Positions 25,380 through 58,387 of a stretch of 64,000 nt of DNA are shown here, one piece after another. Position 1 is the stretch's first letter. The number at the start of each line of letters is the position of its first letter. The position numbers and the translations under genes are program-made. The notes beneath the pieces were generated by a model that made no database searches, had not been told where the DNA came from, and worked only from the letters and a program-made list of their open reading frames with translations. Origin of the DNA: Treponema sp. (lineage in GTDB: Bacteria; Spirochaetota; Spirochaetia; Treponematales; Breznakiellaceae). Location: positions 27,868-91,867 of the forward strand of contig JAIRUQ010000015.1 of assembly GCA_031254315.1 (NCBI GenBank), given 5' to 3'.

Positions 25380-25571
25380 TTTCTGTTTTTATTGACAGAC
25401 GCGGGACTCCACTCCAGCCCTCAACTCCTGTTTCGGGCTTCCGTGCCGGGGTTTTGTGCTAGCGGCGCACATCCTGTGCGCCTTCCCTCCCTGCCGGTCG
25501 GCGCACAAAACCCTTCGAGTCCCAAATTACTCGATTTTTTTTAATTATTCACAAGTTACTTGTTTTTTTAG
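25380..25571 (-). repeat. tRNA-Arg(CCG) 3'-end-duplicating structured element (element X)
   Basis: 30 bp tttctgtttttattgacagacgcgggactc at 25380-25409 exactly repeats 25572-25601 (tRNA-Arg 3' end plus flank). Internal stems GGGACTC/GAGTCCC (25403-25409/25517-25523), GTTTTGTGC/GCACAAAAC (25451-25459/25503-25511), GGCGCACA-TCC-TGTGCGCC (25464-25482). Confidence 0.85.
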
Positions 25572-25584
25572 TTTCTGTTTTTAT

Positions 25585-25658
<74 letters not shown>

Positions 25659-50010: not shown

Positions 50011-50235
50011 CTAATCTTTTTTACTAAAATCAACCTTGGGAATAACAACGGCGGATTTGGACGCGGCTCTGTTTTCAGCTTTGATCGCGTCGTAAACTTC
50101 CTGACGGAAAACTTTTACTTTTTTGGGCGCGTCAATTCCGATGCGAACCTGATCGCCTCTGATTTCTATAATAGAAATTGTTATATCGTCGCCAATTACA
50201 ACTTTTTCATCTACTTTTCTTGACAGTATAAGCAT
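50011..50235 (-). CDS. csrA: Carbon storage regulator CsrA
   Basis: [51 protein letters not shown]. Confidence 0.97.
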
Positions 50236-50239
50236 TATA

Positions 50240-50677
50240 TTATCCTTTAGCGTTCATTTCGGCTATAACGTCATGCTTTGTTTTCCATTTCGCGTCCGCA
50301 AGAATCGCCTGCATTGCTGTCATATTTTCCGTATTTATTACTATGGGTCCCTGAAGGTTAGCTGTTATGGGACCGCCATCCTGAGGAATCGTAATAATCA
50401 CAAGAATCATCGCATTCTCAGGAGATTTTAATCCAATTTCTGAAAGCTCTTCGTTGGTAATATTAAGCTCATAATCTTTTCTGAAGATAAAAGGGTTAAG
50501 CAAAATAAAGGCGATTTCTTTTTCATTAATCGACTGGAGCCAGATAAAAGGCTGAGCTTCCGCGTCAATTAATACATATTCCTTGTAATCTTCAAAACCA
50601 AAAAGCCCCTGGGGTATTGTTACCTTCTGTTTCTCTTCAACATCAATCTGACCAAAGGCTTTTGTGTCTACTTTCAT
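50240..50677 (-). CDS. fliW: Flagellar assembly factor FliW
   Basis: [50 protein letters not shown]; start at 50677 with RBS AGAGGAG. The upstream ORF-track start (50734) lies in the three-hairpin element. Confidence 0.94.
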
Positions 50678-50691
50678 AAAAAAACTCCTCT

Positions 50692-50808
50692 GACTTGCGA
50701 GAGAACCCGGTTGGTTCTCTCGCAAGTCCTGCATTTTCTCGGGCTAAAGCCCTACAAAAATGCGATTTTCTAATGAAGTTATTTAGAAACTGAAGTTTCT
50801 AAATAACT
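50692..50808. repeat. Three-hairpin repeat element, copy 2
   Basis: GACTTGCGAGAGAACC-CGGTT-GGTTCTCTCGCAAGTC (50692-50728); GCATTTT..GGGCT-AA-AGCCC..AAAATGC (50731-50763); AGTTATTTAGAAAC-TGAA-GTTTCTAAATAACT (50777-50808). Confidence 0.9.
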
Positions 50809-50815
50809 CTTGTTG

Positions 50816-52069
50816 CTAACGCAGGAAGTCCAACAAAGACATCGGAAGAATCTTCGCGGCGGCTTGTAAAGCCGCCTGTTGCGCGACCTGCGACATTTTC
50901 ATTTCTGTAATCGTCTGCGCCAAATCAATCCCTGTTTCCCTTCCAAGCATGTCTGTAACATTTGGAATCTGCTGGGTGATTCTCATCCACGCGAACTCGG
51001 CTCTTTCTTTGCGGCTACTAACGTCAGCCATTCTATATGCTACATTATTGACCACCAGCTCCATTCCTGCAATACCCTGACTGCCTATAAACTCATGATC
51101 CCCTCTTAACATACCGTCCCTAAGCCGTATTACCATATCGAATATTGAACCGCCGTAAACCCTCGCGTCCGCGCTCCAGTTGGGCGCGTTATTTTCCATA
51201 TTTCCCGCGATTATTCCTAAATCGCGTAACACAGTAGCACCACCTACACGGTCTTCGGCGCGGATAAGGTGGGCGTTTGTTCCTTCAAGAACAAGCCCTC
51301 TTGAAGTGGGGTCTATGTATGCTTTCACCGGAGCGGGAGAATCATTTATCTTTGCGACAATCGCGGGTAAAGTATCGCCTACACTTACATTTATTTCAAC
51401 ACCGTCAATAAAGAACGCGCCGGGTTCCTGTACTCTGTAATCCGTCGCGTCTGTCGTAGAATATATTTGCATTCTTTCTGCCCAAAACGCTTCGCCTCCG
51501 CCAAGGTCAAGATCAAGAAACATATTGTCGCCAATTTCGACCTTTCTTGAGGGTCCGGCTCCACGGTATTCTACGGCAGTGATCATTGTCTCTCCGCCGC
51601 CTTGTACAGTCCCCTCTACTATCCTGAACGGCTGTGTAAAAACCTTATCGCCTGCAAAAACCTGTCTTGTATCGGGACCAAGCGCGTTGGAAACTGAAAC
51701 CATTTCTTTTAAAAGCTCATTTACTTCAAGCGCCATTATTCTTAAGTCATCCGGTGTGTTTGTACCGTTCGCCGCATTAACCGCAAGCTCTCTGATTCTA
51801 TGGGTAATCGGCATTATTTCGTTTGCTAAATAATCATGGGTGTTATCAAAATGCTTCATAGCAACTTGAGTATTCGTTTCAAAGCGGTTAAGCCTTGTGA
51901 TAAACGAGTCGTACCTCGCGGCATGAGCCGCTCCAATCGGATCGTCCCTTAAACGTTGTATTCTGCTTCCCGTTCCGATTTTTTTCTGAATATTGCTCAT
52001 GTTATCTTCATGCCTTCGTAAATGAAACTGCATATCCGTTACCGGCATGTTAGTTGCTATTCTTTTCAT
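50816..52069 (-). CDS. flgL: Flagellar hook-associated protein 3
   Basis: MKRIATNMPVTDMQFHLRRHEDNMSNIQKKIGTGSRIQRLRDDPIGAAHAARYDS; next to flgK. Confidence 0.92.
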   Translation of the reverse strand: MKRIATNMPVTDMQFHLRRHEDNMSNIQKKIGTGSRIQRLRDDPIGAAHAARYDSFITRLNRFETNTQVAMKHFDNTHDYLANEIMPITHRIRELAVNAANGTNTPDDLRIMALEVNELLKEMVSVSNALGPDTRQVFAGDKVFTQPFRIVEGTVQGGGETMITAVEYRGAGPSRKVEIGDNMFLDLDLGGGEAFWAERMQIYSTTDATDYRVQEPGAFFIDGVEINVSVGDTLPAIVAKINDSPAPVKAYIDPTSRGLVLEGTNAHLIRAEDRVGGATVLRDLGIIAGNMENNAPNWSADARVYGGSIFDMVIRLRDGMLRGDHEFIGSQGIAGMELVVNNVAYRMADVSSRKERAEFAWMRITQQIPNVTDMLGRETGIDLAQTITEMKMSQVAQQAALQAAAKILPMSLLDFLR

Positions 52070-58111: not shown

Positions 58112-58128
58112 GGCTTAATCACTCTGTT

Positions 58129-58312
58129 TGGGTGGATGACGGGTTTCGCCTTGCATTCGGCAACATCCTGTTGCCTCATTCCAGGCCGGAGTTCAGCCCT
58201 GACGCCGCCATCCATGGCGGCTTTTCCTTCGGCGGGCTGAACCCTTCGAAACCCGAATCTTTCCATAAACAATAAAAAAATTATTTTTTTTATAACCTCC
58301 CGAAGATTATAT
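58129..58312 (-). repeat. tRNA-His 3'-end-duplicating structured element (element Y)
   Basis: 20 bp tgggtggatgacgggtttcg at 58129-58148 exactly repeats 58313-58332 (tRNA-His 3' end). Stems GGGTTTCG/CGAAACCC (58141-58148/58247-58254), GTTCAGCCC/GGGCTGAAC (58191-58199/58234-58242), hairpins 58159-58175 and 58204-58221. Confidence 0.85.
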
Positions 58313-58314
58313 TG

Positions 58315-58387
58315 GGTGGATGACGGGTTTCGAACCCGCGACGACAAGATCCACAATCTTGTACTCTACCCCTGAGCTACATCCACC
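58315..58387 (-). tRNA. tRNA-His (anticodon GTG)
   Basis: Reverse strand GGTGGATGTAGCTCAGGGGTAGAGTACAAGATTGTGGATCTTGTCGTCGCGGGTTCGAAACCCGTCATCCACC. Confidence 0.94.

Follow-up and report, generated by a model that had tools for sequence, protein, structure and literature searches.

A family of tRNA-linked repeats in spirochaetes with host-matched ends and two conserved GGA hairpin loops

A folded element between tRNA-His and tRNA-Arg(tcg)

The window, i.e. the whole stretch of 64 000 nucleotides of Treponema sp. DNA analysed here, contains between two tRNA genes a second copy of the 3′ end of tRNA-His, next to a stem that matches the same tRNA. What is such a sequence, how do its ends come to resemble the gene behind which it sits, and could it act as an RNA? 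The locus is made up as follows.

58314..58386, minus strand: tRNA-His(gtg), the host gene (ARAGORN and Rfam RF00005)
58257..58313, minus strand: AT-rich spacer of 57 nt from tRNA-His to element Y (in the family, length is kept and sequence is not)
58139..58256, minus strand: element Y proper, 118 nt, consisting of P1, a core with P2, P4, P5, and P1′ (covariance model R1, 121 bits)
58248..58256, minus strand: 5′ strand of P1 of Y, reverse complement of tRNA-His 57-65 at 8 of 9 positions
58204..58221, minus strand: P4 hairpin of Y, GCCGCC-AUGGAU-GGCGGC, from the fold, with the loop GGA at 58211-58213
58148..58186, minus strand: P5 arm of Y, GCCUGGAAUGAGGCAACAGGAUGUUGCCGAAUGCAAGGC, with two purine-rich internal loops, a ACAGGAUGU loop and GGA at 58166-58168
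58128..58148, minus strand: direct repeat of the 3′ end of tRNA-His (T-loop position 57 onwards) with flank; its first 9 nt are the 3′ strand of P1
58038..58111, minus strand: tRNA-Arg(tcg), next downstream of Y (ARAGORN)

Read along the minus strand, the order is tRNA-His, spacer, folded element, repeated tRNA-His 3′ end and tRNA-Arg(tcg); in the host genome, R1 matches Y at G000:C99:86006-86123. The repeat noticed in the first-pass annotation, 184 bp away from the tRNA end, is indeed there and amounts to 21 nt, TTGGGTGGATGACGGGTTTCG, at 58128-58148 and 58312-58332, as is the inverted pair given for Y (GGGTTTCG at 58141-58148 and CGAAACCC at 58247-58254). The description of the outer stem as the T-arm of the neighbouring tRNA holds in so far as the stem matches its own tRNA, but the 3′ copy covers the tRNA from T-loop position 57 onwards, up to its 3′ end, and is not the T-arm as such. 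Next to the 5′ strand of P1 comes GAA, itself complementary to UUC 54-56.

A sequence scan revealed a good promoter-like site, TTGACA-17-CATATT, ahead of tRNA-His; from tRNA-His to tRNA-Arg(tcg) it detected nothing terminator-like on the minus strand. Both results suggest that Y is probably part of one transcript with both tRNAs. The earlier proposal of a single primary transcript is likely on these grounds and from the shortness of the orthologous loci that are empty (see below).

A second member of the family, X, is found elsewhere in the window.

25401..25525, minus strand: element X (R1, 70 bits; G000:C99:53268-53392)
25585..25658, minus strand: tRNA-Arg(ccg), host of X (ARAGORN)
25380..25409, minus strand: exact 30-nt copy of the tRNA-Arg(ccg) 3′ end with flank (other copy at 25572-25601)

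The direct repeat of X extends beyond the tRNA (30 nt exact, 52 nt at 81%). X and Y had been thought to share a structured skeleton, and this is borne out: R1 finds both, both contain the 9-bp stems attributed to them, and both fold beyond dinucleotide shuffles, with minimum free energy z-scores of -5.6 for Y and -5.1 for X.

Size, range and hosts of the family

With Y as a blastn query against 40 related genomes, matches were obtained in 22, nearly all of them directly 3′ of tRNA genes of many isotypes; those in the T. denticola-like genomes G026 and G029 were discarded as short chance matches within genes. An exact-pattern scan for the P5 motif in 85 462 bacterial and archaeal genomes gave 70 stretches, all 70 of them from spirochaete records, mostly Treponema MAGs but also other Spirochaetaceae and Spirochaetia, and rumen or horse isolates. 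R1 detected members in 10 of 149 genomes sampled phylum-wide, mainly from the same order. In the host genome, the covariance-model search called for at the outset yielded 17 copies; X and Y are among them, as are four that lie from tRNA-Ala(cgc) to tRNA-Phe and another three that follow tmRNA.

Of 104 unique full copies, 84 have just upstream, in the same sense, a tRNA or tmRNA gene with a matching 3′ end (calls from ARAGORN -t and -m runs were merged, since a joint run loses some of these tRNAs). The hosts comprise 17 tRNA isotypes and tmRNA, i.e. 18 gene types, and in 71 of the 84 copies the 17 nt compared, starting at position 57, are all identical to the host. Every hosted copy is sense-oriented with its tRNA, and arrays of 2 to 4 copies occur. 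Most of the remaining 20 copies are near the end of a locus or degenerate, and two have a tmRNA-like end. This appears to be a previously undescribed family of TLR type, found only in spirochaetes; in the open-access literature searched, nothing on tRNA-linked repeats of spirochaetes turned up, and the term itself occurs only in PMC8144298 and one editorial.

Conserved fold, covariation and GGA loops

All the members tested fold well beyond shuffles, with z-scores of -5 to -9. Covariation was assessed on 37 aligned members and 44 pairs, with 500 shuffles and five measures. Changes on both sides were found in 32 of the 44 pairs, the doubly changed cells numbered 344 as against 113 in shuffles, and on each of the five measures all 500 shuffles stayed below the observed value. 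When the structure was shifted by 1-3 columns, the paired cells fell from 90% to about 40% and the covariation score from 0.52 to about 0.1. P1 is paired at 97.6% despite differing between host tRNAs. The covariation check suggested for X and Y thus came out far beyond controls. That the match of the outer stem by itself shows selection on structure is not supported, since in cores that are 96% identical both strands of P1 have been switched (see below).

P5 consists of a symmetric GNA/GNA loop, two covarying pairs, a tandem GA/GA loop and a hairpin loop of the ACAGGAU type, while P4 has an A(N)GGAN loop with a closing C-G pair. GGA is present in 96 of 99 P4 loops, 89 of which fit C-A(N)GGAN-G; for P5 the figures are 98 and 91 of 102, biased by the search pattern. 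Since part of the set was retrieved with a pattern that already contained the P5 loop, the unbiased test is P4. The stems around the GGA loops vary freely and the loops are kept, although the GGA loop is lost in some copies (e.g. P5 of L002).

Another property of the helices is the rarity of G-U, which makes up 2.8% of the minimum-energy pairs as compared with 11.6% in tRNAs and 12.4% in shuffled elements; slow compensation at the RNA level thus cannot account for everything. Perfect inverted repeats kept or made at the DNA level would fit such scarcity, and strong selection for stable helices could also account for it.

In some copies, other repeats have been inserted in P4 or P5. A REP-like one with a CTAC/GTAG end, CTACTCGGGCTAAAGCCCTCGCGC ... 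CATCCGCACAGCTTAACGCTGTGCATA, lies inside P4, after the GGA, in several host-genome copies at tmRNA and Ser loci (L140:1861-2123, L147:1644-2069 and L212). The Ala copies of the same genome (loci L188 and L196) carry in both the P4 and P5 loops a repeat ...CCGCCGAATGGCGG... / ...CCGCCGTATGGCGG... with a second hairpin, placed right after AGGATGA; the GGA loops of these TLRs resemble insertion hotspots. In JAIROT, a termite Treponema, a P5 arm directly follows a near-complete tRNA-Trp (L079:7680-7789), as if this tRNA had replaced the rest of the core.

Both ends follow the host gene

The element ends in a copy of the host gene's 3′ end, beginning at T-loop position 57, and opens with the reverse complement of positions 57-65. 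The latter, the 5′ strand of P1, lies outside any tRNA; compared with the reverse complement of its own host's positions 57-65, it has a mean of 8.07 matches out of 9. With hosts permuted, the mean is 5.40 (sd 0.13, maximum 5.82 in 2000). In ten pairs, cores with an identity of 84% or more lie behind different host genes. In the most telling case, from G016, the cores are 96% identical; the P1 strands next to Arg(tcg) are GCAGGAUUC/GAAUCCUGC and those next to His are AGGGGAUUU/AAAUCCCCU, i.e. both strands have been switched. The match thus seems to be created as the copy is laid down: it changes at once with the host gene and has not been built up by slow compensation.

The spacer is kept in length (median 60 nt, with 25 of 47 within 56-68) and variable in sequence, and the distances from gene to element cluster at 57-69. 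The tRNA genes of the host genome fall into two sets, with either an inverted T-arm strand at +56 to +69 (11-12 of 12 positions) or chance-level matches; tRNA-Arg(tct) is the one borderline case, with 10 of 12 at +146 and no core after it. Several origins for these parts were considered and rejected. An inverted copy that predates insertion is contradicted by the element-free tRNAs of the host genome, which have only chance-level matches. A spacer made by snap-back synthesis, with the tRNA flank copied in full and inverted, is significant in only 9 of 44 cases, mostly copies with terminators. A simple target-site duplication does not agree with direct repeats ranging from 7 to about 80 bp while the spacer stays near 60, and the His-locus spacer contains no tRNA-Arg sequence.

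Some right ends are irregular. Tandem short extras of GGC plus the tRNA 3′ end, GGCAAGTCCCTTCTCTCGTAG repeated, are seen at a tRNA-Leu(tag) copy (L036), and likewise at the second His copy of L031; they look like footprints of lost copies. At the end of one array (L131:7502-7600) the core is deleted, leaving GGGGGCTTG-AAG-CAAGCCCC followed by T7, a lone P1 that resembles an intrinsic terminator.

Dispersal and the search for an enzyme

The orthologous His-Arg(tcg) locus contains the element in G000, G003 (two copies), G008, G009, G011 and G014; in G015, G018 and G005 there is none and the tRNAs are 17-24 nt apart. Orthologous sites are thus filled or empty and near-identical cores occur at different tRNAs; both are marks of a mobile element and indicate that the family disperses. 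On the core tree, host isotype changes number 49, for 64.4 expected by chance and a minimum of 17, which points to partial inheritance in place along with frequent moves. The family both gains and loses copies, and at a new tRNA the two strands of P1 fit the new host.

No mobilising enzyme emerged from the PF00078 and PF01797 candidates. Reverse transcription by a resident enzyme was rejected, since neither the host genome nor several other carriers encode a PF00078 reverse transcriptase. A Y1 transposase gene (PF01797) is present in 10 of 16 carriers and 1 of 15 non-carriers, one of the genes being broken, an association confounded with phylogeny. The only Y1 gene of the host genome, of RAYT type (L167:1342-1938, G000:C102), is flanked by many GGTGACAGTCACC palindromes, probably a repeat family belonging to that gene itself, and not by the TLR element; mobilisation by Y1/RAYT was rejected on both counts. 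The element itself does not belong with RAYT/REP repeats, i.e. GTAG-flanked palindromes tied to a Y1 transposase. A phage-borne element was likewise rejected, as the pattern had zero matches in 2.9 million viral contigs.

What the element might do

The reading that we put first, tentatively and without being persuaded of it, is that Y is a dispersing TLR whose read-through RNA titrates CsrA via the P4 and P5 loops. A C-A(N)GGAN-G hairpin loop is the ligand motif of CsrA/Rsm proteins, and in most copies the loops of both hairpins fit it. Transcribed together with tRNA-His and tRNA-Arg(tcg), Y would be released as a structured RNA and CsrA would be bound through P4 and P5, so that the titration of CsrA would keep pace with the transcription of stable RNA, as has been suggested for RrA/B/F of E. 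coli. P1 would close the RNA, so that the additional tRNA 3′ end could not pair with the real tRNA. A candidate partner is encoded in the window, and csrA was found in 19 of the 20 spirochaete genomes tested.

50011..50235, minus strand: csrA, 74 aa, candidate partner (PF02599, E 9.4e-25; Leu4 and Arg44 seen by inspection)
50240..50734, minus strand: fliW-like gene, directly upstream of csrA (ORF, named from sequence and gene order only)
50816-52069: flgL-like gene, ahead of the fliW-like gene (ORF, named from sequence and gene order only)

We know of no CsrA-sequestering sRNA in spirochaetes. An intrinsic terminator lies between tRNA and element in 18 of 68 copies, which would thus need read-through; in 8 of the 68 a second one follows the element, so that these copies, like RrA/B/F, are flanked by a first and a second terminator.

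The patchy distribution and the few G-U pairs fit a DNA-level mobile element equally. A serious, if doubtful, alternative is a non-autonomous selfish element of about 100-145 bp, which would insert at the T-loop of tRNA or tmRNA genes and restore the gene with its own 3′-end copy, its hairpins being recognised as folded ssDNA or RNA by an enzyme acting in trans and P1 being a by-product of insertion, with no gain for the host. The T-loop, in which the direct repeats begin, is a sublocation of some tRNA integrases. The presence or absence at orthologous sites, the arrays and stubs, the perfect Watson-Crick stems, the inclusion of tmRNA among the hosts, the cores switched between His and Arg(tcg) within one genome and the number of isotype changes, far above the minimum though below chance, would all be expected. 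However, an integrase with 18 specificities would be odd, the only Y1 gene of the host has palindromes of its own, and neither a reverse transcriptase in the host genome or several carriers nor a viral match was found. Copies are also always in the sense of the tRNA, and strand-specific GGA loops are more in keeping with an RNA ligand than with a DNA one.

The two readings may be joined, though we find it unlikely that all parts would hold: a mobile element would insert at almost any tRNA or tmRNA T-loop and rewrite both its ends each time, as a direct and an inverted copy of the new host's T-loop and T-stem strand, and its RNA would be a CsrA ligand. If true, this would be a dispersed CsrA sponge tied to tRNA expression and made by a previously undescribed copying mechanism.

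Still less probable, in our view, is a control of processing or folding of the tRNA transcript. Being complementary to the T-loop and T-stem of its host, the 5′ strand of P1 would pair with either the real T-arm or the end copy, the latter being a decoy that keeps the tRNA folded, or else the structure would guide RNases or termination; the copies with a terminator on either side (8 of 68) would suit such a role. But a minority of host-genome tRNA genes have the inverted copy and the rest have none, so it is not needed for tRNA maturation, and the conserved loops and core are left unexplained. Ordinary debris of unequal exchange at tRNA genes, with neither a structure-dependent function nor dispersal, might account for tandem units and decaying distal copies, yet it deserves hardly any credence in view of the 32 of 44 pairs changed on both sides (0/500 shuffles), the invariant loops and the spread of one family across many genera.

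Comparison with known systems

Under the CsrA-titration reading, counterparts by function would include the sRNAs that sequester CsrA or Rsm proteins. Like CsrB/CsrC and RsmY/RsmZ, the spirochaetal elements present ANGGA hairpin loops as a ligand motif, but they have two conserved GGA hairpins per copy, are tRNA-linked and multi-copy, and no promoter of their own was seen; the match of Y to the RsmZ model is weak and non-significant (15.1 bits, E 0.49, gathering threshold 44). As for mobile DNA, the islands of tyrosine integrases catalogued by Islander (PMC4383910) also duplicate the 3′ end of the gene, restore the host gene and target tmRNA. Unlike these islands, the elements have no integrase, measure about 100-200 bp, use 18 gene types for one family and have as their other end an inverted copy of the T-arm strand.

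In layout, the elements compare with the TLRs of E. coli (Egan and Landy 1978; Rudd 1999; reviewed in PMC8144298), an orphan class since 1978 whose function and origin are unsettled. TLRs are a feature of tRNA and rRNA operons, and a locus may contain from one to five. E. coli has 22 of them at ten loci, with an 18-19 bp 3′ end identical to that of the upstream tRNA or rRNA gene (PMC8144298). Three, RrA, RrB and RrF, lie behind 5S rRNA and are transcribed when polymerase reads through a first terminator, and their GGA motifs bind CsrA in vitro; their deletion has modest effects only, and the 19 non-rRNA TLRs are predicted not to bind CsrA (PMC8144298). Spirochaetal copies share with RrA/RrB/RrF the GGA-loop hairpins, one of them C-AGGAC-G (GGCGGGC-AGGAC-GCCCGCC in the rrnB copy, with the same loop as many P4 copies), and for some the position between two terminators. 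They differ in being behind tRNA genes; no T-arm outer stem was found in rrnB and no sequence homology was shown. In E. coli (NC_000913 2815500-2820500), csrA lies directly beside the serV-argVYZQ cluster with its several TLRs, possibly a coincidence.

The lead to rtT given by the first-pass annotation proved sound for layout and not for sequence. In E. coli K-12, where RtT follows tyrT and tyrV, the spacers measure 56 and 59 nt, the inverted copy 8-10 bp and the direct copy 19 nt, and the Rfam RtT structure (RF00391) already pairs the inverted and direct copies. The outer stem is full in RtT and in the argV TLR (8 bp), shorter or imperfect in others and absent in the rrnB copy. The spirochaetal elements lie in tRNA operons in the same way, with an outer stem about 60 nt behind the tRNA: both groups are in the same sense behind a tRNA gene, have a 3′ end copied from the T-loop on (58-59 in the Arg and Lys TLRs, 57 here) and a similar spacer, pair an inverted T-stem strand with the direct copy, and occur as one to several copies per locus. 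The Rfam RtT model gave no match to Y at E up to 10 (model threshold 45 bits), nor did R1 on the E. coli tyrT region. What is common, as far as these two models go, is the architecture. Unlike E. coli TLRs, the spirochaetal family belongs to another phylum and is also behind tmRNA; it has another core and fold, a full 9-bp P1 at 18 host gene types and two GGA hairpins. A much larger, well-covarying set of TLRs in a second phylum supplies comparative data that had been missing, in which the two GGA loops, the P5 internal loops, the spacing and the T-loop boundary are fixed and others follow the host gene. Two questions can now be put to the test: whether CsrA is tuned by tRNA-linked RNAs, and by what route an element of 100 nt gains ends matched to every new host.
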